64,000 nt of DNA, taken from NCBI GenBank assembly GCA_030432635.1, contig JAUIMB010000004.1, positions 124,001 through 188,000 on the forward strand, read 5' to 3'. A program made the position numbers and the translations under genes. Shown here in pieces: positions 49,895 through 62,505 of this stretch. Position 1 is the first letter of the stretch. Each line of letters starts with the position of its first letter. The notes beneath the pieces were generated by a model. The model saw nothing but the letters and a program-made list of their open reading frames with translations, ran no database searches and was not told the origin of the DNA. This stretch comes from Bacteroidia bacterium. Lineage in GTDB: Bacteria > Bacteroidota > Bacteroidia > Flavobacteriales > Flavobacteriaceae.

Positions 49895-50917
49895 ATGGAT
49901 TCATTGACTCAAATAGTATTAGGAGCAGCATGTGGAGAGGTGGTACTTGGCAAGAAAATCGGTAATAAAGCCTTAATGTTTGGCGCAATTGGTGGCACCA
50001 TTCCCGATTTAGATGTACTCGTAGGAAGTATGCTTTATGGTAATGAAATTGATGCTATGCTTTTCCACAGAGGATTTATGCATTCTATTGTATTTTCAAT
50101 TTTAGCCGCATTTGGGTTAGGTTGGTTGGTCTATAAGTTGTATAATTCAGGAAAGCGCCTAAACACAACAACTCAGAAGGATTGGATATCACTTTTTTTC
50201 TGGTCACTATTTACGCATCCAATTCTAGATTGTTTTACACCTTACGGAACCCAACTATTTGCACCATTTTCCAATTATCGTGTTGCACTTAATACCATTG
50301 CTGTTGCAGATGTGCTTTATACAACACCATTTTTAATCTGTATGCTTGTATTGATGTTTTTCAACCGCAAAACTGAGAAACGTCGTCTTTGGCTGAAAAT
50401 AGGATTGGGAATAAGTTCGGTTTACATGTTGTTCACTGTGTTCAATAAAATGTATGTCGATAGTGTTTTTAAATCCTCCTTATACGAACAAGCTATCGTT
50501 TTTGAGCGCTTTAGTACCCAACCTTCCATATTGAACAATATTTTATGGTATGGCATTGCTGAAACTGATGATAATTATCAAGTGGCATTTTATTCATTAC
50601 TAGATGAGACCCATCGTTTTTCTGAATGGAAGACTATTCCTAAAAAGCGTCTTATTGATACCACATATGAAAACGACATTCATTGTTTGGCGTGGTTTAG
50701 CAACGGATATTTCAACGTAGAGCAAACGGGTCAGGGCGAATATCTGTATTATGACTTAAGATACCCAATGGTAAAGACCAGGAAAGGCTACAAGCCTGTA
50801 TTTAATTTGAATCTATACGAAGTGGATCATCGCTTAGACATGAAACCCTTTGAGCCCGAAATGGAAGATTTTGAGTTTACGATGAAATCACTTTGGGAAC
50901 GATTGAAAGGGATTTAA
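49895..50917 (+). CDS. YdjM-like membrane-bound metal-dependent hydrolase (DUF457 type)
   Basis: The protein is 340 aa from the ATG at 49895, chosen because MDSLTQIVLGAACGEVVLG is the conserved family start; the frame is open 32 codons upstream. It contains the histidine-rich motif FHRGFMHS and a GTIPDLDVL segment near the N-terminus, plus TPYGTQLFAPFS, and about four to five membrane helices. The C-terminal third is soluble. The family includes LexA-regulated YdjM of E. coli, whose exact substrate is unclear. Its stop overlaps that of the LytTR gene in a shared TTAA. Confidence 0.88.
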   Translation: MDSLTQIVLGAACGEVVLGKKIGNKALMFGAIGGTIPDLDVLVGSMLYGNEIDAMLFHRGFMHSIVFSILAAFGLGWLVYKLYNSGKRLNTTTQKDWISLFFWSLFTHPILDCFTPYGTQLFAPFSNYRVALNTIAVADVLYTTPFLICMLVLMFFNRKTEKRRLWLKIGLGISSVYMLFTVFNKMYVDSVFKSSLYEQAIVFERFSTQPSILNNILWYGIAETDDNYQVAFYSLLDETHRFSEWKTIPKKRLIDTTYENDIHCLAWFSNGYFNVEQTGQGEYLYYDLRYPMVKTRKGYKPVFNLNLYEVDHRLDMKPFEPEMEDFEFTMKSLWERLKGI

Positions 50918-51651
50918 GTAGTATTGAGCCAATTCTTTGCATCGGCTTTCTTTCGTCTCGATACTCGTATTTGCATGCTGTTTTTTAATTTGAAATAGTC
51001 GTCTTTTAATTCGTTAACATGAATTTTATTGACCAAAAACGACCTATGGCATCTAAAGAACCCTTTATCGACCAAAATGTCTTCAAAATGAGCCAAGTTT
51101 TTAGACGTTAGTTTTTTGTTGCCATTATTTAAGTGAATATAACTGTAGTTGCGTTCACCTTCAATATGGGTGATTTGTTTTAAGGTAAACCGTAATGTTC
51201 CAGTCTGTGTAGGTAAGATTAGTTTTTGATCGGTAACTGATTTTGTTTCAAGGTTTGACAAAGCAGTTTGCACTTCAACAACATTATTAGTAGAATTAAG
51301 GCAGCGTGTAATCGCTTCAGCCAATTCATCTTCCTTAATGGGTTTTACCAAATAGTCCAAGGCATTGAATCGAAAGGCTTTTATGGCATAATGACTATGC
51401 GCAGTTGTAAAAATGGTTTTGAAATTTATTTCTTCAAGTTGGTTAAGCAGCTCAAAACCTGTCATGTCTGAGAGCTCTATGTCTAGAAGTACAATGTTTG
51501 GTTGGACTTTCGATATCATTTTCAAGGCTTCCTTTCCAGAATGGGCAATCCCTAAAACTGAAATTTTTTCAGAATAGGGTTGCAACATGTCTTGTAGTAC
51601 TATTGCCATGTAGGTGTTGTCCTCTACAATTAAAGTCTTGAGTTTTTCCAT
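50914..51651 (-). CDS. LytTR-family response regulator
   Basis: The protein (245 aa) has a receiver domain (about 5-120) with phosphoacceptor D57 in IVLLDIEL and K103-type lysine in YLVKPIKEDE, then a C-terminal LytTR DNA-binding domain (about 145-243) with ITHIEGERNYSYIHL and the closing FFRCHRSFLVNKIHVNEL. It is divergent from a hybrid histidine kinase operon, and the intergenic region holds tandem LytTR-type sites. I infer that it is the output of that phosphorelay and may control its own transcription too. Confidence 0.93.
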   Translation of the reverse strand: MEKLKTLIVEDNTYMAIVLQDMLQPYSEKISVLGIAHSGKEALKMISKVQPNIVLLDIELSDMTGFELLNQLEEINFKTIFTTAHSHYAIKAFRFNALDYLVKPIKEDELAEAITRCLNSTNNVVEVQTALSNLETKSVTDQKLILPTQTGTLRFTLKQITHIEGERNYSYIHLNNGNKKLTSKNLAHFEDILVDKGFFRCHRSFLVNKIHVNELKDDYFKLKNSMQIRVSRRKKADAKNWLNTT

Positions 51652-51681
51652 ATAATAGTTGAAAGATACATATTTTTTACA

Positions 51682-51752
51682 ACCGTTTGATAAGTTATTT
51701 AACCATTGGATAATTGATTTTCAAATTTTTACATCTTGTAGTCGTATCTTGA
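51682..51752 (+). promoter_or_regulatory. Tandem LytTR-type sites and promoter of the hybrid kinase operon
   Basis: ACCGTTTGATAA (51682-51693) and ACCATTGGATAA (51702-51713) are direct repeats with a 20-bp period, close to the LytTR consensus of a GTT-containing 9-mer pair. A -7-like TATCTTGA lies at 51745-51752, 31 bp after the second repeat. No TTG -33 box is present, as expected for an activator-dependent promoter. A near-identical block lies at 55187. Confidence 0.7.
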
Positions 51753-51771
51753 AGTCATAATTATAAAGGTT

Positions 51772-54402
51772 ATGGTTAATATTAAGTCAATTCTGGTGGT
51801 TTTACTTCTAACAAGTATGTCTTGTCAATTGCTTTCCCAAGAAAAAAATAAGGATTCGCTCTTTGCCGTTTGGAGCGATACTTCAAACCTGCCTAAAGAA
51901 CGTGTTAATGCCTTCTATCATCGTTTTTATCCATTTGAAAAGGTAATGTTGACTCCTGAAGTATTGCGATGGGAAAAAGGCAGTGAAAAATTACAAGAAC
52001 TAGCCGTTGAAGCAGAACTAAACAACTACTTACCGTATTTAAAATTACTGGAAGCTGGAAAATTTATCTTGCTCAATGATTTAGAAACGGCTTGCCCTTT
52101 GGCTAAAGAAGCATTTTATCTAGCTGTTGAGCAACATGATTATGAGACGATTCAAGAATCATATGAGGTTATTCGTGACCTATGTGATTTACTTGAAGAT
52201 ACTTCCATCGAAGAGGCCTTGGTAGAATTGCAGCAAAAAATAACAGACCCTTATTTTAAAATAGTCCTTACTGAACCCATAACATTTTATCTATATAGAC
52301 AAAGTAGATACTCTGAAGCATTGCCACTATGTCAAACCGTTATTGATTATTATGATACACATCACTTGCAACCAGATGATGTGTTAGCGTTTACCCTAAT
52401 GAATGTTGGAAATATCCACAAGCACCTTCAAAATTTTGAAGAGGCAAAACCTTATTATCGAAGATCTAAATTCGTATTTGGCTTGCTAAATGACGAAATA
52501 AATAGGATGAAAATAGATTTGAATCTCGCAGAAACCTTTGCACTTGAAAAGAGCATAGACAGTGCACAAGTCCATATCGAGGATGTGTTCGATTACTATT
52601 CCAATGTTCCAGAATGTGTTCCTTGTCTTGGGCGAGCATATGTCGTAGAGGCTCAAATTATGAATCTAAGACACGATTATGAGAAAGCCATAAAATCTTT
52701 GGAATCATTGGCGTCTAGATTTGACGAAACTGGATCAAAATCTGATGATGACATTAAATATTCAGGTCCTTTTAATATCGAATCGTATCACTTCACCTTG
52801 GCGGAAGCGTATCTTGGTTTAAAGCAGTACAAAAAAGCCATCGAAACAGCCAAAAAAGGAATAAACCGTAATATAAGGAGCTCTTATATTATAAGAAATT
52901 ATGATGTATTGTATAGAGCTCAAAGGGCAGCAGGGCAGTATAAAAATGCGCTTGAGACCCATATACGGTATAATAAAATGAATGACTCTGTAGCGCAACT
53001 TCGCAACAGTCAAATGGTTTTGCGTAAGGAACTGGGCCTTCAGTTTGAAAAACAGCGCTTGGCAGACAGTTTAAGTTTGGAACAAAAGCGCCTTAAAAAC
53101 GAATTGGATTTACAAACAGAAATTAACCAACAGAAAACCACCAAGAATATTTTAATCGCTTTTGGTCTTGTCATATTTTTATTTGCCATTGGCTTGTGGT
53201 ATCGTTTAAAATATATTAGAAAAACGCAGAAGATAATTCAACAGGAAAAGGAAAAGGCACAAGCTTCAGAAAAAGCCAAACATCAATTTCTTGCCAATAT
53301 GAGTCACGAAATCCGTACACCGATGAACGCCATAAAGGGCATGACAGATATTCTATTGCGACGCAAACCGAGAAAGGATCAAACCGAATATTTGGATGGC
53401 ATCAAACAATCCAGTGATTCGCTGTTGGTTATCATCAACGATATTCTGGATATTTCAAAAATTGAAGCAGGCAAGATTGAATTGGAGCACGAACCCTTTT
53501 CTGTGAAAGAGGTTGTGTATAACGTGCAGACTATAATGCAATTTAGAGCCGAAGAAAAAGGACTTCAACTGAAAACTAACTTGCCACCTGAAGAATTAAT
53601 GGTTAATGGTGATGATACGCGCTTAAAACAAATCCTAATCAATTTAATTGGGAATGCCATCAAGTTTACCGAAAAAGGAATGGTCACTACAACGGTTACT
53701 TCCGAAGAAAAAAACAGTAAACTAAATCTTCATTTTACGGTTTCTGACACAGGCATTGGCATAGACAAAGACCGTATTGAAAAAATTTTTAAATCCTTTG
53801 AGCAAGCCTATAGCGATACCACACGAAAGTTTGGCGGTACAGGTTTGGGTTTGAGCATTTCCAAAAAGTTGGTAGAACTGCACGAAGGCAACATTTGGGT
53901 AGAAAGCGAAAAAGACAAAGGCAGTCAGTTTCATTTTACCATTGCTTATGATGTTGCAAAAGATGTTTCAGTAGAAAAAGAAACCTTAATCATTTCAGAA
54001 AATAATACAGCCGAACAACTTAAAGGTATTAAAGTCCTGTTGGTTGAAGACAATCAGTTTAACGCTGTAGTAGCACAAGAAGAACTTGAGGATGCCATAG
54101 AAAATGTTGTTATTGATGTAGCCGAAAATGGTGCCATTGCTGTAGAAAAGGTAAAGTCTATTGATTTTGATATCATCCTAATGGATGTACAAATGCCCAT
54201 AATAAACGGTTACGAAGCCACAGAAAAAATACGAGCATTATCCAACGGAAAAGCCAACACCCCAATCATTGCTATGACAGCCAATGTGCTCAAAGAAGAA
54301 GTCGATAAATGCTACGAAGCAGGTATGAACGATTTTATCGGTAAGCCATTTGATACAGAAACATTACTGAACAAAATACACAAACTCACAAAAAATCAAT
54401 AG
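51772..54402 (+). CDS. TPR hybrid sensor histidine kinase / response regulator
   Basis: The protein (876 aa) has a signal-like N-terminus, then a long periplasmic region of helical TPR-type repeats (about 60-410), a coiled coil, and one membrane helix at about 460-478. The kinase core follows, with H512 in ANMSHEIRTPMNAIKG and the ATP-binding boxes NLIGNAIKF, DTGIGI and GTGLGLSI. The C-terminal receiver domain has phosphoacceptor D805 in IILMDVQMP. The REC and HPt genes follow with 2-bp and -1-bp spacing, giving a complete phosphorelay set. No DNA-binding domain is present. Confidence 0.94.
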   Translation: MVNIKSILVVLLLTSMSCQLLSQEKNKDSLFAVWSDTSNLPKERVNAFYHRFYPFEKVMLTPEVLRWEKGSEKLQELAVEAELNNYLPYLKLLEAGKFILLNDLETACPLAKEAFYLAVEQHDYETIQESYEVIRDLCDLLEDTSIEEALVELQQKITDPYFKIVLTEPITFYLYRQSRYSEALPLCQTVIDYYDTHHLQPDDVLAFTLMNVGNIHKHLQNFEEAKPYYRRSKFVFGLLNDEINRMKIDLNLAETFALEKSIDSAQVHIEDVFDYYSNVPECVPCLGRAYVVEAQIMNLRHDYEKAIKSLESLASRFDETGSKSDDDIKYSGPFNIESYHFTLAEAYLGLKQYKKAIETAKKGINRNIRSSYIIRNYDVLYRAQRAAGQYKNALETHIRYNKMNDSVAQLRNSQMVLRKELGLQFEKQRLADSLSLEQKRLKNELDLQTEINQQKTTKNILIAFGLVIFLFAIGLWYRLKYIRKTQKIIQQEKEKAQASEKAKHQFLANMSHEIRTPMNAIKGMTDILLRRKPRKDQTEYLDGIKQSSDSLLVIINDILDISKIEAGKIELEHEPFSVKEVVYNVQTIMQFRAEEKGLQLKTNLPPEELMVNGDDTRLKQILINLIGNAIKFTEKGMVTTTVTSEEKNSKLNLHFTVSDTGIGIDKDRIEKIFKSFEQAYSDTTRKFGGTGLGLSISKKLVELHEGNIWVESEKDKGSQFHFTIAYDVAKDVSVEKETLIISENNTAEQLKGIKVLLVEDNQFNAVVAQEELEDAIENVVIDVAENGAIAVEKVKSIDFDIILMDVQMPIINGYEATEKIRALSNGKANTPIIAMTANVLKEEVDKCYEAGMNDFIGKPFDTETLLNKIHKLTKNQ

Positions 54403-54404
54403 TT

Positions 54405-54791
54405 ATGCAAAACACCAATCCCACCATTTTTATAGTAGATGACGAGCCTTTATTGACCGAAATGCTTGCCGATTACCTAAAGGAACAATACGTAGGCTTT
54501 AACATCAAAACCTTCCCAACAGGAGAAGCTTGTTTAAAACACCTACACGAAAACCCTGATGCTGTGGTGCTGGATTATTACTTGAATTCCAAGGAAAAAG
54601 ATGCAGCCAATGGTATTGATATACTTAAGGAAATAAAACACCAAGATAAATCACAGCCAGTAATAATGCTATCCAGTCAAAAAAGTTATGTTACCGCTTC
54701 GCAAACCATAATGTATGGCGCAGTACATTATGTTATAAAAGGACAAGATGCTTTTGAAGAAATTTACGAACTCATTAAAGCCAATGTGTAA
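54405..54791 (+). CDS. Stand-alone response regulator receiver
   Basis: The protein (128 aa) is a single receiver domain with D12/D13 in FIVDDEP, phosphoacceptor D57 in VVLDYYL, and K112 in YVIKGQD. It has no output domain. It starts 2 bp after the hybrid kinase gene and overlaps the HPt gene by one base (TAATG), which indicates translational coupling. It may serve as a phosphate sink or as an intermediate or CheY-like regulator within this relay. Confidence 0.93.
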   Translation: MQNTNPTIFIVDDEPLLTEMLADYLKEQYVGFNIKTFPTGEACLKHLHENPDAVVLDYYLNSKEKDAANGIDILKEIKHQDKSQPVIMLSSQKSYVTASQTIMYGAVHYVIKGQDAFEEIYELIKANV

Positions 54792-55129
54792 TGGTAGATT
54801 TAAGTTTTCTGGAAAAATTCACAAAAGGCGATATCAATAAAATGAAACGCTACATCAAGCTTTATTTGGATGTGGCACCACAAACCTTTGTACAAATGCA
54901 ACAAAATATTGACGATAACGATTGGGAACAGTTGCGCATCCATGCTCATTCCCTAAAACCACAAGTTGAATTTATGGGCATAACAACATTAAAAAACGCT
55001 TTGATTAAGATAGAATTTGCTGTAAAAGAGCAATACAGAAATGAGATCATCGAAAACTTCAGACTGGCAAATACTATTTTTATCAGTTCATCTAAACAGC
55101 TAAATACTATTTTAGCAACCTTGAAATAA
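54791..55129 (+). CDS. Histidine phosphotransfer (HPt) protein
   Basis: The protein (112 aa) is one HPt four-helix bundle. The phosphorylatable histidine is H53 in IHAHSLKPQVEFMG, which matches the AHxLK motif of the family. Encoded as the last gene of the hybrid kinase operon, it should carry phosphate from the kinase's receiver to a separate regulator; the divergent LytTR protein is the obvious candidate. The start ATG overlaps the stop of the REC gene. Confidence 0.92.
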   Translation: MVDLSFLEKFTKGDINKMKRYIKLYLDVAPQTFVQMQQNIDDNDWEQLRIHAHSLKPQVEFMGITTLKNALIKIEFAVKEQYRNEIIENFRLANTIFISSSKQLNTILATLK

Positions 55130-55186
55130 AATGACATTCTGTTATATTATCCGTTTGAATTCAAGATAAAATACCGCTGTTTTTGT

Positions 55187-55257
55187 ACCGTTTGATAAGT
55201 CATCTAACCGTTTGATAATTAAAGTATAGTAAAGTGTATTGGCGTATACTACCTTTA
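55187..55257 (+). promoter_or_regulatory. Tandem LytTR-type sites and promoter of the S74 surface protein gene
   Basis: ACCGTTTGATAA occurs at 55187-55198 and 55207-55218, a 20-bp period. The 34-bp block differs from the one at 51682 at only four positions. A -7-like TACCTTTA lies at 55250-55257, again 31 bp after the second repeat and without a -33 TTG. A related single TCCGTTTGA lies further upstream at 55150. Confidence 0.72.
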
Positions 55258-55274: not shown

Positions 55275-57614
55275 ATGGAAAATAAGTACGCAACAATTAT
55301 CGGTTTCTTTTTAATGGTTAACATGTTACAGGCGCAAGTGGGTATCGGTACAACATCGCCTGATGCCTCATCGGTATTGGATATTACTGCAATCGACAAA
55401 GGTGTGTTGGTGCCAAGGGTAAGTCTGACCGATGTCACCAATACCACAACACCAGTGGCAACACCAGCAACTGGCTTATTGGTTTGGAATACTAATGCCA
55501 CTACTACAGGAGGTAATGGTGTAGGGTTTTATTTTTTTAATGGCGTACAATGGATGCCCATAAGTTCTGGTACTGGCGTAGAAAAAATAGACGATTTATT
55601 AGATGGCAAAAGCGATAATGATGGCACCAATAATGGCTCTTCTGTGTTTTTGGGTTTAGATGCCGGCGCTAATGATGATGAAGCCGATAATAGAAATGTA
55701 GGTATAGGGTATCAAGCTTTATTTTCGGGAACCAGTGGAGGTAATAATACCGCAATAGGATATCAAGCTTTATTCTCAAATGGCGTAACTGGTATTCGCA
55801 ATATAGCTGTTGGTAATCTATCATTATATTCGAATACTGAGGGTGATATGAACATAGGTCTTGGTTACCAAGCCTTATACTCAAATACTACAGGGGACTA
55901 TAATATAGCTCAGGGATATCGAGCTTTATATTCAAATACTACAGCTAGGTTTAATATTGCTATTGGGTCTACTGCATTATACTACAATATTACAGCTGAA
56001 GCTAATACGGCAATAGGACACGGATCTTTACTTTCTAATACCACAGGAGAAGCAAATACCGCAATAGGCTATCAATCTTTATACTCCAACACCACAGGTG
56101 AAAACAATACAGCCATTGGGTATCAATCCTTATATTCAAATAGTACCACTGGGCACCAAAACATAGGGATTGGTCGTCTGTCTTTATACTCAAATACTAC
56201 TGGAGACAATAATATTGCCCAAGGATACCAAGCTTTGTATAATAATACTACGGCAAGCAGTAATATTGCATTTGGTAATAGAGCTTTATATTCAAACACT
56301 ACTGGTGCTAACAACATTGCCCAAGGCTATCAAGCGTTAAATACCAATACAACAGGAAATGACAATATTGCCAACGGCTCTCAAACCTTATACACCAATA
56401 CCACGGGAGATAATAATATAGCGCAAGGGTATCGCGCTTTGTTTTCGAATACTACGGGTTATGACAATATTGCTAATGGCTATCAGGCTTTGTATTTAAA
56501 TACTACAGGAAGAAGAAATATAGCTCAAGGATATCAGGCACTCTACTCAAATACTACAGGAGACTATAATATAGCTCAAGGATATCAGGCACTCTATTCT
56601 AATACTATTGGAGATAGCAATATAGCAAATGGCTATCGAGTTTTGGACTCCAATACTACTGGAAACCATAATATAGGGATTGGACAATTTGCTTTAACTT
56701 CCAACACAACAGGTAGCGATAACATTGCCTTGGGTTATTCGTCATTGCACTCAAATACTACAGGTTCTGGAAATATTGTTTTTGGAAATAATTCACTGAG
56801 CAATAATACTATTGGTTCAAGAAATTTGGTGTTTGGGTATGATGCTGCAACCTTACTAGATGGAAGTTTTAATATAATCATGGGTAATCGAGCAGGTTTT
56901 GGTGCAAATGGAAGTCATCAATTATATATTGAAAATAGTGCTATTGCTCAAACCAATGACGATGTTTTAATATATGGAGAATTTGATAATGACTTGCTAC
57001 GGTTTAACGCCACTTTGCAAATGGGTCAGGCAGGCAATGCATCGTATTTGGAGATCGCCAATTTAGGAACAGACAATCTGGGTTTAGATGGCGATGTGGT
57101 TCCATATCAAGGTACAGCCTTAGGTTACGATATGGGTAATAACAATGCCGCAGAGCATTGGGATGACGTTGTAGGTGACGACTTTATCAATTTTAGTGAT
57201 AGACGACTTAAAAATAGCATTGTTGCTGTCCCGTACGGATTAGAAGTAGTACTACAATTACGTCCAGTACAATATCGATATAATAAGTCGTATACGCCAG
57301 ATACACGTTTGCGACTGGGTTTAATCGCACAAGAGGTAGAACAGTTTTTGCCTGAAGTGGTGATGAATGACGATGTCGATGTCAATCCAGAAACCGGTGA
57401 ACTTGTGGTTACAACATCAGACTATAAGTCGATGAACTACATACAACTTATTCCTGTGCTCATTAAAGCTATTCAGGAGCAACAAGCACAAATAGATGAC
57501 CTAGAGAAAGAAAGCAAGGCTAAGCAGAAGCTTGTTCAAGACAATAAAGATATGAAAAGCAGGATTGATGCATTAGAAAAACACATTTCCAACTTAGAGA
57601 TTAACCATAAATAA
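55275..57614 (+). CDS. Repeat-rich surface/tail-fibre-like protein with S74 intramolecular chaperone
   Basis: The protein (779 aa) has a signal peptide ending near MLQAQ (20) and a head motif VGIGTTSPDASSVLDI common in Bacteroidetes fibre-like proteins. Residues 145-520 are about 22 tandem units of 17 residues of the type GYQALYSNTTGDNNIAQ, expected to fold as a trimeric beta structure like YadA heads. The C-terminus has a peptidase S74 domain: FSDRRLKNSI, where the serine is the expected self-cleavage residue, then GLIAQEVEQFLPEVV, then a coiled coil. Such domains assemble the trimer and then cut themselves off. Confidence 0.9.
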   Translation: MENKYATIIGFFLMVNMLQAQVGIGTTSPDASSVLDITAIDKGVLVPRVSLTDVTNTTTPVATPATGLLVWNTNATTTGGNGVGFYFFNGVQWMPISSGTGVEKIDDLLDGKSDNDGTNNGSSVFLGLDAGANDDEADNRNVGIGYQALFSGTSGGNNTAIGYQALFSNGVTGIRNIAVGNLSLYSNTEGDMNIGLGYQALYSNTTGDYNIAQGYRALYSNTTARFNIAIGSTALYYNITAEANTAIGHGSLLSNTTGEANTAIGYQSLYSNTTGENNTAIGYQSLYSNSTTGHQNIGIGRLSLYSNTTGDNNIAQGYQALYNNTTASSNIAFGNRALYSNTTGANNIAQGYQALNTNTTGNDNIANGSQTLYTNTTGDNNIAQGYRALFSNTTGYDNIANGYQALYLNTTGRRNIAQGYQALYSNTTGDYNIAQGYQALYSNTIGDSNIANGYRVLDSNTTGNHNIGIGQFALTSNTTGSDNIALGYSSLHSNTTGSGNIVFGNNSLSNNTIGSRNLVFGYDAATLLDGSFNIIMGNRAGFGANGSHQLYIENSAIAQTNDDVLIYGEFDNDLLRFNATLQMGQAGNASYLEIANLGTDNLGLDGDVVPYQGTALGYDMGNNNAAEHWDDVVGDDFINFSDRRLKNSIVAVPYGLEVVLQLRPVQYRYNKSYTPDTRLRLGLIAQEVEQFLPEVVMNDDVDVNPETGELVVTTSDYKSMNYIQLIPVLIKAIQEQQAQIDDLEKESKAKQKLVQDNKDMKSRIDALEKHISNLEINHK
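55707..56834 (+). repeat. Coding tandem array of about 22 units of 51 bp
   Basis: Each unit encodes G-Y-Q-A-L-Y-S-N-T-T-G-x-x-N-I-A-x; units 2 and 9 have 18 codons. Adjacent units at about 56520-56620 are almost identical at DNA level, while others differ, which points to recent local duplication or gene conversion. Copy number may vary between strains. Confidence 0.9.
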
Positions 57615-57619
57615 ATTAT

Positions 57620-58186
57620 ATGATGAAAAAAGTAAATGCTTTAAAGCTAGTATTCATAGTCCTAATTTCTATATGCAATTATGCCTGCATTGATAGGGTA
57701 ACAATCCCTGAAACAGATACAACACCACCAACCTTTTCGTTTAAAATAGAGGGCGATGGTTTTAGTAGAACCTTTACTCAAGATGATAATTTTAGCAGCA
57801 TGCAATTGAATTTAAGAGTCAATAAAGTGTATTCTTTTGTGTTTTCAGGAGATGATTCTGGAGGTTTGGCACTGCTACAATGGCAGTTGGGAGGCAACGA
57901 TATCATCGAATTTGATGATGATTTCCCTAGTGGTGAATGGACAATAAGGGATATTTCTGCTTTCAATAGGATGATAGAATGGCAAGGTGATAGATCCAAT
58001 CCTTATGTTGGAATGGTTTTAACAGGACGATTTGTTGCAAGAAGTGGCGGTTCTGGAACCTTTGATACTACTGATTTTGGCTTTTTTGCTATGGACTTTG
58101 GTGGAAGATCTGGTACAGCAAATCAGGCCACAGGAAATTTATATGTATCAATTGGTGATTCTCCAACGGAGTTGGTTGAATTATAG
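57620..58186 (+). CDS. Lipoprotein of unknown function after the S74 protein
   Basis: The protein (188 aa, or 187 from the second ATG) has a lipoprotein signal with cysteine at residue 23 (SICNYAC). The mature part contains TPPTFSFKIEGDGFSRTF and several strand pairs with glycine-rich turns. It starts 5 bp after the S74 protein, so the two are probably co-transcribed. It may be an envelope anchor or export partner of that fibre protein, but the family is not recognised. Confidence 0.72.
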   Translation: MMKKVNALKLVFIVLISICNYACIDRVTIPETDTTPPTFSFKIEGDGFSRTFTQDDNFSSMQLNLRVNKVYSFVFSGDDSGGLALLQWQLGGNDIIEFDDDFPSGEWTIRDISAFNRMIEWQGDRSNPYVGMVLTGRFVARSGGSGTFDTTDFGFFAMDFGGRSGTANQATGNLYVSIGDSPTELVEL

Positions 58187-60144: not shown

Positions 60145-60771
60145 ATGCAATCCAACGTATACAGACTTTCAGAATTATTCATAATCTTTTTCTTGATTCC
60201 CGTGAGTTACGCGCTAAGTTATCCTATATGGATCAAGGTGTCACTTGGTGTTATTGGTTTTCTGTATGTTGTATTCGTTTTGATTCGGATTGAGAATAAT
60301 AAATTCAGAGTCGCTCCAAACCTTAGTTGGAAAATATTTTGGAAACGAACCTTAATTCAATTTTCAATCATTGCGGTTATAACAATACTTTACATGTGGT
60401 TTGTGGATCGTGACAACTTATTTGTGGTCATATTGAATAAGCCTTTATTTTGGTTGGTGATTTTGTTTGTTTACAGTTTACTTTCAGTGTATCCTCAAGA
60501 ATTAATTTATAGAACGTTCTTCTTTCAGCGCTATAGAGGTTTGTTTAAAAGCGATGTGCTTTTCATATTGCTCAATGCGACCGTTTTTTCACTGGCACAC
60601 CTCTTTTTTAAAAATAGCCTCGTCATGTTTCTCACGTTCATAGGCGGAATTTTATTTGCTTTGACATTCAAAAAGACAAAGTCAACTCTGTTGGTTTCTA
60701 TTGAGCATGCCATTTATGGTTGTTGGTTGTTTACGGTCGGAATGGGTGAAATGCTAGGCTTTCCAACTTAA
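60145..60771 (+). CDS. CPBP-family intramembrane protein (Rce1/CAAX-protease-like)
   Basis: The protein (208 aa) has about six hydrophobic segments. The active-site region reads YPQELIYRTFFFQRY: where the family usually has EExxxR this has QExxxR, so the first glutamate is replaced. A later FSLAHLFFKN supplies the second motif histidine and EHAIYG the third. Whether it is an active protease is uncertain. Its stop shares a TTAA with the stop of the convergent LytTR gene. Confidence 0.85.
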   Translation: MQSNVYRLSELFIIFFLIPVSYALSYPIWIKVSLGVIGFLYVVFVLIRIENNKFRVAPNLSWKIFWKRTLIQFSIIAVITILYMWFVDRDNLFVVILNKPLFWLVILFVYSLLSVYPQELIYRTFFFQRYRGLFKSDVLFILLNATVFSLAHLFFKNSLVMFLTFIGGILFALTFKKTKSTLLVSIEHAIYGCWLFTVGMGEMLGFPT

Positions 60772-61454
60772 CCTAATTTATTGTCCAAAATAGTTTTATA
60801 GCGATTGCTCATTGGAATTCTATTGGAGTTAATAAGCACATGTTTAGACTCGATAACCTCAATGTGCGGTAATGAAACAATATAGGATTTATGGACTTGT
60901 ACAAAGGTATCGGGCAATTTCTCAAGAGCTTCATTTATCGTTTCCCTAGCTAATATCTTTTTTTTGAGGGTATGGTAATTCATATAATTGCCATCCTTTT
61001 CAAGGTATAAAATAGAGTCTATTTCGATTTGATGTTTTTCGTAACCACTTTTAATAATAAGGGTTGGTTTAGGATGTTCCGATGTTAGTCGAGTTGAAGT
61101 AGTTATCATATCGGAAACTTTATCTATTGCTGCTCTAAAACGTTTATATGTGATGGGTTTTAGGAGATAGTCAGTGGCATTAAGGTTATAACTTTCCACA
61201 GCATATTCAGAATATGCAGTTGTAAATACTATATGGGTTTCGGCTGGAATTAATTTGGCCAATTGTATGCCAGACAGATTTGGCATGTTGATATCGAGAA
61301 GTATGAGTTGAGGTTTTTTTGTTTCAATATATTGAAGGGCTTCAATAGAATTTCTAAAGGACTTCATGCAAAGTATATCACGTGAGCGTTCACAGTAATT
61401 TTTCAAAAGCTCTATGGCTTTTGGTTCATCGTCAATAATAATGGCTTCAATCAT
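60768..61454 (-). CDS. LytTR-family response regulator, second copy
   Basis: The protein (228 aa) has a receiver domain with D8/D9 and phosphoacceptor D54 in LILLDINMP, K103-type lysine in YLLKPITYKR, and a C-terminal LytTR DNA-binding domain with ILYLEKDGNYMNYH and the closing VQVHKSYIVSLPHIEVIE. It overlaps the LytS-type kinase gene by 8 bp, which marks them as a two-component pair. It differs from the LytTR regulator at 50914 and no site for it was identified. Confidence 0.94.
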   Translation of the reverse strand: MIEAIIIDDEPKAIELLKNYCERSRDILCMKSFRNSIEALQYIETKKPQLILLDINMPNLSGIQLAKLIPAETHIVFTTAYSEYAVESYNLNATDYLLKPITYKRFRAAIDKVSDMITTSTRLTSEHPKPTLIIKSGYEKHQIEIDSILYLEKDGNYMNYHTLKKKILARETINEALEKLPDTFVQVHKSYIVSLPHIEVIESKHVLINSNRIPMSNRYKTILDNKLG

Positions 61455-62505
61455 ATTCCAATTTTAGATTTACGTTGTAGGTATTGCCTTTTTCGGAAAT
61501 CGATAATTCGTGCTTTTCAGGATATAATATACGCAGTCTACGCTTTACATTTTGCAGGCCAATGCCAGAATTATGCTTTTCCAAGGAATTGCCATTGGGT
61601 TTTGTGCTTAGGGAGTTTTCACATTCGAATTCCAAAGTCTTACCAACTCGTCTTAGCCGCATCTTAATGAAAGACGTATTGTATATGTCAATTCCGTGTT
61701 TAAAGGCATTTTCAACAAAAGGAATTAAAAGTGCAGGCGCAATTTTTATGTGGTTCAACTCGCCTTCAGTAGTAAGTGAAATATCGAGGTCATCTGTGTC
61801 ATCAAACCTAAGTTTATTGAGTTGGATGTAGTTGTTGATGAATTCGATTTCCTTGCTTAGGTATATAGTATCTCCCGAAGTATCATGCAACAAAAACCGC
61901 AGTAATTCCGATAGTTGTGCTATTCCAGAAGATATTTCAGTTTGTTTGTGTTTTTCAGAGATGGACAAAAGATTGTTTAGGGCATTGAATAAAAAGTGCG
62001 GATTGATCTGTGATTTTAATAGTTGTAATTCGGCTGTTAGTTTGTCTTCGCGCAATTGCCTTTTTAACGCTTCTTCTTTTTGCCACCTCAATATCATGAT
62101 ATGAACAAAGGACATACCTACAAAAAAGATGTATAGCCATAAAATAGTGATGAGGTTTTCGGCCAACAAGAATTCAAAGCCATAAATTAATTTGTTTTTG
62201 AAAAGTTCCAGTACAATTGCTGAAATTGTCGCTAGTAGAAGATAAGATCCATATCGCCTAAACTGCCTCTTGTTGAAATATTTGGAGAGTACATATACAT
62301 TAAAATAGTAAAGCGATAGTTTTAGGATAAAACCAATAATGGTTCCAAATACACTAATCCCATCATAGGATATCTCAACAATTTCCTGTCCGTTTATAAT
62401 TTCGACTTCCCTGTTTTGCGGACTGATAATCGCAAAGATTAAATAAAAACAGATCAGCCAAAAAAGGAGATTGATTCCTATTTCTATAAATCGATTTGTG
62501 GTCAT
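61447..62505 (-). CDS. LytS-type sensor histidine kinase
   Basis: The protein (352 aa) has four membrane helices (roughly 8-28, 51-73, 87-105, 116-138) and no large periplasmic domain. The cytoplasmic part is the His_kinase type that partners LytTR regulators: H170 in INPHFLFNALNNLL is the phosphorylated residue, and PALLIPFVENAFKHG is the N-box. The stop overlaps the downstream LytTR gene by 8 bp. A small-molecule or membrane-stress signal is likely but not known. Confidence 0.94.
   Translation of the reverse strand: MTTNRFIEIGINLLFWLICFYLIFAIISPQNREVEIINGQEIVEISYDGISVFGTIIGFILKLSLYYFNVYVLSKYFNKRQFRRYGSYLLLATISAIVLELFKNKLIYGFEFLLAENLITILWLYIFFVGMSFVHIMILRWQKEEALKRQLREDKLTAELQLLKSQINPHFLFNALNNLLSISEKHKQTEISSGIAQLSELLRFLLHDTSGDTIYLSKEIEFINNYIQLNKLRFDDTDDLDISLTTEGELNHIKIAPALLIPFVENAFKHGIDIYNTSFIKMRLRRVGKTLEFECENSLSTKPNGNSLEKHNSGIGLQNVKRRLRILYPEKHELSISEKGNTYNVNLKLEYD

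Follow-up and report, generated by a model that had tools for sequence, protein, structure and literature searches.

We analysed a 64,000-nucleotide stretch of contig JAUIMB010000004.1 (positions 124,001 to 188,000 of the forward strand; assembly GCA_030432635.1) from a marine member of the Flavobacteriaceae, referred to here as the window, in which a LytTR response regulator gene, a divergent phosphorelay operon and an operon for a predicted surface fibre are accompanied by two near-identical tandem blocks of DNA that we interpret as putative operators (Table 1). The gene setting proposed in a preliminary description of this DNA, namely a REC+LytTR regulator, a divergent hybrid kinase operon with REC and Hpt genes and an S74 protein, was confirmed by Pfam. 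The regulator is a LytTR response regulator by its domains (Response_reg, 1.5e-21; LytTR, 2.1e-16), with an Asp57 that is invariant across four aligned orthologues, and the window proteins comprise the parts of a phosphorelay, that is, a hybrid kinase with its own receiver, a separate HPt protein (His53 invariant across four aligned homologues) and a separate output regulator. Hydropathy of the kinase revealed only a hydrophobic N-terminus and one stretch near residues 455-480 (transmembrane), and its TPR sensor therefore probably sits in the periplasm. The S74 protein is predicted to form a surface-located trimeric fibre, judging by its signal-like N-terminus and its Peptidase_S74 domain (Pfam, 4.2e-14, residues 641-696 of 779), and its gene probably shares an operon with that of the 188-aa lipoprotein-like protein, which has no Pfam or NCBIfam match.

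Table 1. Genes and predicted control elements of the cassette, in window coordinates.
Feature	Coordinates	Strand	Length	Remarks
LytTR response regulator, proposed activator	50914..51651	-	245 aa	REC + LytTR
Candidate -7 box TATCTTTC of the LytTR gene	51661..51668	-		13 bp from outer edge of operator 1
Operator 1 (predicted)	51682..51713	+		ACCGTTTGATAA-N8-ACCATTGGATAA, period 20 bp
-7 box TATCTTGA of the kinase operon	51745..51752	+		Starts 31 bp past second unit of operator 1
Hybrid histidine kinase	51772..54402	+	876 aa	Pfam TPR, HisKA, HATPase, REC
Stand-alone receiver	54405..54791	+	128 aa	Pfam REC
HPt phosphotransfer protein	54791..55129	+	112 aa	Pfam Hpt
Operator 2 (predicted)	55187..55218	+		ACCGTTTGATAA-N8-ACCGTTTGATAA, period 20 bp
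-7 box TACCTTTA of the S74 operon	55250..55257	+		Starts 31 bp past second unit of operator 2
Repeat protein, signal-like N-terminus, predicted surface fibre	55275..57614	+	779 aa	C-terminal Peptidase_S74 (endosialidase chaperone)
Lipoprotein-like protein	57620..58186	+	188 aa	Begins 6 bases past the S74 gene

The two blocks (51682-51715 and 55187-55220) differ at four positions across 34 bp, and each consists of two ACCGTTTGATAA-like 12-bp units with a 20-bp period, in agreement with the coordinates and counts first reported. Their flanks are dissimilar (identity at 13 of 30 bp upstream and 19 of 60 bp downstream). Read as two copies of a 9-bp core, ACCGTTTGA, with an 11-nt spacer and a period of 20, the blocks fall within the LytTR type of operator, in which two repeats of 9-11 nt are separated by 11-13 nt. 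The unit pair, allowing up to 3 mismatches, matched twice in the window compared to no match in 100 shuffles, and both of its only two matches in the 3,508,160-base genome are these blocks, with none for the reversed pattern. Single units at up to 2 mismatches are not unusual in the window (14 vs 9.0 expected); the rarity belongs to the pair. The wider pattern ACCRYTNGATHA-N8-ACCRYTNGATHA, again at up to 3 mismatches, recovered both blocks at 0 mismatches plus 3 genomic matches at 3 mismatches, compared to 3 matches of its reversed control, and a 12-bp array pattern gave 1 match vs 4 control matches; because these extra matches do not exceed the controls, no additional target was found in the genome itself.

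Both blocks are positioned alike with respect to a promoter. The preliminary description had placed a -7-like box exactly 31 bp past the second unit in each case, and the boxes TATCTTGA (51745) and TACCTTTA (55250) do lie there. It had also noted the lack of a -33 TTG, and within the 40 bp examined no TTG occurs at that spacing at either promoter, the TTG-to-box gaps being 6, 28 and 36 at the kinase promoter and 8 and 35 at the S74 promoter. Counted by the 9-bp core, 11 bp separate the two repeats, and 33-34 bp lie between their end and the -7 box. The same short distance to the promoter core recurs in 26 of 44 related tandem sites, with 13 TAnnTT(T/G) boxes starting at gap 30 and 13 more at gap 31, compared to about 0.4 boxes expected from the other gaps; all remaining gaps from 0 to 39 together hold 8 boxes, none of them more than 2, and, given the relatedness of the sites, these counts are not independent. 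The 26 boxes are divided evenly between TAnnTTT (13) and TAnnTTG (13), and a TTG lies 15-21 bp ahead of the box in only 6 of them. One set of 34 sites also contains weak, box-less ones (L086, L087, L093 and L099; L and G numbers denote loci and genomes).

The motif accompanies the regulator gene across genomes. Of 23 genus genomes, 4 encode the LytTR orthologue and the motif occurs in the same 4 and in 0 of the other 19 (Fisher 1.1e-4), with one match for the reversed-pattern control (1/23, G016). For the family, we used a sample of 299 genomes, 3 of which also belong to the genus sample, and a motif threshold of at most 1 mismatch: the orthologue was found in 9 genomes and the motif in 6, with 5 in common (reversed control 1/299, G146), which amounts to 5/9 genomes with the orthologue vs 1/290 without (P 3.9e-8, or 1.1e-6 leaving out our own genome). 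Six of the 9 orthologue-bearing genomes are neither our own genome nor among the named loci. Among the four orthologue-only genomes, two (G097, G278) have the tandem site at 2 mismatches, and the other two (G298, G222) have clustered half-sites upstream of HPt, G222 lacking a tandem site even when 4 mismatches are allowed. The single family match in a genome lacking the orthologue (G240) is taken as chance because neither a box nor a gene start lies within 200 bp downstream. A stricter pattern (up to 3 mismatches) was present in 12 of 24 genomes reached via the named loci (reversed control 2/24, G059 and G061). At the level of individual loci, the tandem site at up to 4 mismatches occurs in 26 of 35 orthologue loci (reversed 3/35) vs 1 of 26 other LytTR loci (reversed 1). 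In compiling these, 28 of 42 loci (L041-L068) were taken as orthologues, with L069 (37% identity) and L070-L082 excluded; L108 and L111, which carry a cassette with a LytTR gene of their own, are not counted among the 35. Thus, far from being scattered at random, an outcome that had been named in advance as speaking against a shared regulator, the motif has only two sites in the genome and tracks the LytTR orthologue elsewhere.

Conservation extends to the two promoters themselves, where absence in relatives with the LytTR gene was the other outcome that the preliminary description had named as a refutation. The kinase orthologues of L041, L061 and L136 are likewise preceded by a site, as are the more distant kinases of L042, L108, L138 and L139; a box follows at 31 bp, or a degenerate one at 30-31 bp. 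L108 also has a site upstream of a receiver gene. The closest S74 orthologue (L136) retains the site too, with the box at 31, as do the more distant S74 genes of L057 and L110. The full arrangement, with LytTR divergent from kinase-receiver-HPt and then the S74 and 188-aa lipoprotein gene pair, is found in L136 (G165), where both the kinase and the S74 promoter have a site with the box at 31. No S74 gene was found in the stretches examined for L041 and L061. In G262, G330 and G109, the site adjoins LytTR and the box is again at 31; in G330 and G109, the operon begins with a gene for a 410-aa protein with a signal-like start. In G278, TATATTCG, not a strict box, occupies the box position next to LytTR. 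Among 57 genomes (our own included), three genus members encode LytTR orthologues with 48-49% identity, followed by a next match at 39%, and show the one-strand order lipoprotein, HPt, hybrid kinase, LytTR, with half-sites in the 20-bp register upstream of the lipoprotein and TATATTTA 30 bp past the last half-site. The window kinase is 35% identical to the L034 kinase along the whole alignment, with most of the identity in the catalytic region, and a search of the other 56 genomes at 1e-20 gave no match to its sensor part.

In a phylogenetic tree, 34 orthologous regulators form one clade relative to 17 other LytTR proteins (support 100/100); the tree included 34 of the 35 orthologues (L068 is partial and was left out) and 17 of the 26 controls. 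The nearest row to the window regulator is L136 (76% identity), and both belong to a sub-clade of nine (95/92; window, L041, L042, L061, L136, L138-L141) whose LytTR genes and kinase operons are divergently arranged. Most of the 35 orthologue loci also have an HPt gene (30) and a hybrid kinase gene (32), neither of which was found at any of the 26 other LytTR loci. Structure matches to the regulator, considering the best 60 of 131, nearly all cover the receiver domain. In the wider family, the putative operators are built from the same half-sites in varying arrangements: 27 of the 35 orthologue loci (reversed 2) and none of the 26 others (reversed 0) contain two half-sites within 60 bp of each other, neither with more than 1 mismatch. 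Within the range of 12-58 bp, same-direction half-sites are spaced only by 12 (16), 20 (16), 32 (5) or 52 (5) bp, 42 pairs in all. Opposed pairs show a wider spread, with 19 of 27 at 16-17, 28-29 or 40-41 bp, and most inspected loci lacking the tandem site have inverted half-sites 12 bp apart upstream of HPt, often facing a further direct unit. This 12/20 spacing grammar, seen across the 35 orthologue loci, exceeds the two-repeat LytTR sites of the literature cited below.

The genes behind the sites differ between genomes. Besides kinases and S74 proteins, they include lipoproteins of one family by phmmer (L050, L053, L056, L060, L111), proteins with a type IX secretion system (T9SS) sorting domain (L048, L049, L065) and a phmmer-defined small exported-like family (L043, and twice each in L107 and L111); most of these proteins start signal-like, as judged by eye. 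Members of the small exported-like family share VTWxGGTPGxE...NWS...VPNE near the N-terminus, with no Pfam match for the L043 member and no NCBIfam match for the L107 member. An AlphaFold model of the 220-aa lipoprotein target, built with 4 sequences, had a mean predicted local distance difference test (pLDDT) score of 38.5 and was not used. L108 and L111, two loci found through the motif only, have LytTR, HPt and hybrid kinase genes of their own, and four sites lack a cassette gene in the stretch examined (L112, L113, L115, L118). Some true targets may be located away from the cassette, as L113 combines a box at 30 with an exported-looking target; the L115 and L118 sites are probably chance matches.

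Three of the loci with sites deserve separate mention. In L111 (G071; sites at 2969, 4586 and 4615), two back-to-back operators of opposite direction share inverted half-sites in one intergenic region, one ahead of a small exported-like protein and one ahead of a lipoprotein, with the third site nearby. Behind its operator, L110 (8273-14458) encodes an S74 protein of 2062 aa that carries Kelch and LVIVD beta-propeller repeats. In L109 (G064, 940-1410), a zero-mismatch tandem site lies about 110 bp from an HPt gene reading away from it, and no LytTR or kinase gene was found in the 9-kb stretch.

Because the sites share their promoter distance and travel with the regulator gene in relatives, one LytTR regulator very probably switches both operons. 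We therefore propose, with considerable confidence, that a phosphorelay-fed LytTR activator turns on its own kinase operon and the neighbouring surface-protein operon; the notion of one LytTR activator for both promoters, already put forward in the preliminary description, is supported by comparative genomics, with an operator architecture that varies in the wider family. The membrane hybrid kinase, sensing through its putative periplasmic TPR part, would transfer phosphate via its own receiver to HPt and from there to LytTR, the last step being suggested by gene linkage. Phosphorylated LytTR would then occupy both tandem sites with one monomer on each unit, two helical turns apart, and would replace the missing -33 element to activate RNA polymerase at the -7 boxes 31 bp downstream. 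It would thereby raise its own kinase-receiver-HPt operon, in a positive feedback, together with the operon for the S74 fibre and the lipoprotein. The site between the divergent genes would at the same time cover the -33 region of the candidate LytTR promoter, so that LytTR may simultaneously check its own gene.

Several observations weigh against this interpretation. A strict box at 30 or 31 is missing in 18 of the 44 sites, which include degenerate boxes at the same place as well as probable chance matches at 3-4 mismatches. No 20-bp tandem site at up to 4 mismatches occurs in 9 of the 35 orthologue loci, and in L064 the 170 bp upstream of the HPt gene contain no half-site. The proposed relay assigns no part to the stand-alone receiver. 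Two genomes, G020 and G004, each have one more match at up to 3 mismatches that lies away from the cassette and is box-less. The family search for orthologues scored only 8 candidates per genome, at a cut-off of 1e-75. Finally, the 26 other LytTR loci used as controls are short (about 3.7 kb, vs up to 20 kb), so that a distant HPt or kinase gene there would be missed.

Alternatively, another regulator, encoded elsewhere, could bind the tandem sites and happen to travel with the cassette. The binding of LytTR is a prediction from sequence, and the genome contains 36 matches to the LytTR protein at E<=0.001 (itself included), which could be of similar specificity. We nonetheless regard this as quite improbable: the motif is absent from all 19 searched genus genomes that lack the orthologue, none of the 26 other LytTR loci has the site at up to 3 mismatches (the one match, at 4, equals the control), and LytTR is the only protein with a DNA-binding domain among the cassette proteins scanned with Pfam. 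Two near-identical copies 3.5 kb apart would also be in keeping with a small repeat, mobile or simple, that plays no regulatory part. Such a repeat is, however, very unlikely because the distance to the box is fixed across genomes; the position relative to box and gene is conserved even in distant ones, and same-direction half-sites at 12-58 bp are confined to the four spacings given above. We rejected this explanation, as the genome contains only two copies, with unrelated flanks.

The direction of control is a separate question, as it is unreadable from sequence alone. LytTR might bind the sites and yet repress or merely tune the promoters, with another signal driving them. In 4 of 10 divergent loci inspected (window, L041, L061 and L136), TATCTTTC, TATCTTTA or TATATTCA lies on the LytTR-side strand 13 bp (window) or 14 bp (the other three) from the operator, a position that would suit repression of the LytTR gene; none was found there in the other 6. 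At the kinase and S74 promoters, in contrast, the site ends 31 bp ahead of the box with no -33 TTG, close to the geometry of LytTR-activated promoters. Activation of these operons is preferred because the window promoters fit the published LytTR scheme at its long end, and repression or tuning seems rather unlikely.

Beyond the single locus, we lean slightly towards the view that the orthologue loci represent an undescribed family of portable surface-display cassettes in Bacteroidota, in which an HPt-fed LytTR regulator is kept together with an operator that outlives its targets. If so, the half-site, its 12/20-bp spacing rule and the gap to the -7 box are fixed while the surface gene is exchanged, be it for an S74 fibre, a T9SS adhesin-like protein, a lipoprotein or a small exported protein. 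The operator would then serve as a socket through which new surface proteins come under an existing signal with no need for a new promoter to evolve. The analysis supplies, for a Bacteroidota LytTR phosphorelay, a concrete operator, a regulator and a promoter geometry, predicts surface proteins that are switched together with a sensor, and makes the local regulon of genomes with this LytTR clade readable from sequence. In a search of the open-access PubMed Central (PMC) literature, which was not exhaustive, we found no account of such a LytTR/HPt family or of a Bacteroidota LytTR phosphorelay.

Some neighbouring and related genes lie outside this arrangement. At 60768-62505 of the window, a second LytTR regulator adjoins a His_kinase-domain protein, presumably LytS-like, as a separate pair that lacks a neighbouring tandem site of the present kind. 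A paralogue with 52% identity to the 188-aa lipoprotein is encoded in the same genome (contig C9, 101704-102234), near a contig end and just after an S74-like gene; the promoter of this paralogue (L156) is unreadable because the contig ends inside the S74-like partner. At the seven loci with homologues outside the cassette (L156-L162), which comprise this paralogue and homologues from six other family genomes, we found 0 believable sites, the single match, in L161, having 4 mismatches and lying about 9.5 kb from the lipoprotein gene. A plasmid search with the 188-aa protein gave no match.

LytTR response regulators with tandem operators include AgrA, ComE and VirR, and the usual partners of such regulators are simple LytS/AgrC-type kinases. 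LytTR operators are described as repeats of 9-11 nt, 11-13 nt apart (PMC4847170), and PlnC as binding 9-bp repeats with a 12-bp spacer upstream of the promoter core (PMC2714321). Like PlnC/PlnD and YpdB, the window regulator is a REC+LytTR protein with two direct repeats, here 11 bp apart, upstream of a promoter core. Unlike them, it is linked to a hybrid kinase and HPt, its half-site is ACCRYTNGATHA, its promoters are of the Bacteroidota -7 kind, its exported-protein targets vary by genome, and some members of its clade have 12-bp and inverted arrays.

With the Bacteroides hybrid two-component systems, in which sensor and DNA-binding regulator form one protein (PMC11253607), the locus shares a Bacteroidota hybrid kinase; it differs in that the output is a separate LytTR protein, and the 876-aa kinase has no DNA-binding domain among its Pfam matches. 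The -7 boxes resemble those of flavobacterial promoters, which lie at -12 to -5 and are given as TAnnTTTG for sigma A and TAnnTTGY for SM5, the SM5 box being described for Flavobacterium psychrophilum (PMC9723704). The TAnnTTG half of the boxes at gap 30 or 31 is near the latter, and, unlike flavobacterial sigma-A/SM5 promoters, neither window promoter has a -33 TTG.

The nearest published geometry among those compared is that of the LytTR regulatory systems (LRS), as far as the excerpted rows and text of PMC6193735 go. LRS repeats are mostly 12 bp apart, with a minority at 11 or 13, and usually lie 10 bp before -35; among the rows consulted, the four complete ones of Table 3 place the repeats, by summation, 32-34 bp away from the -10 or -7 box, and three complete ones for S. 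mutans place them 27-31 bp away. LRS-like operons in Bacteroides thetaiotaomicron and B. ovatus have autoregulatory repeats 11 bp long and 11 bp apart, located 11 bp before a TGTA/TGTG-19-TATCTTTG promoter, which sums to 34 bp ahead of the -7 box TATCTTTG (PMC6193735). The window operators are likewise direct repeats with a putative autoregulatory role. An LRS regulator, in contrast, lacks a receiver and lies in an operon with a membrane partner, with transmembrane segments in the Bacteroides regulators (PMC6193735), whereas the window regulator is a receiver-domain protein beside a phosphorelay operon, and the YdjM-like membrane protein gene that adjoins it is convergent and not part of the same operon.

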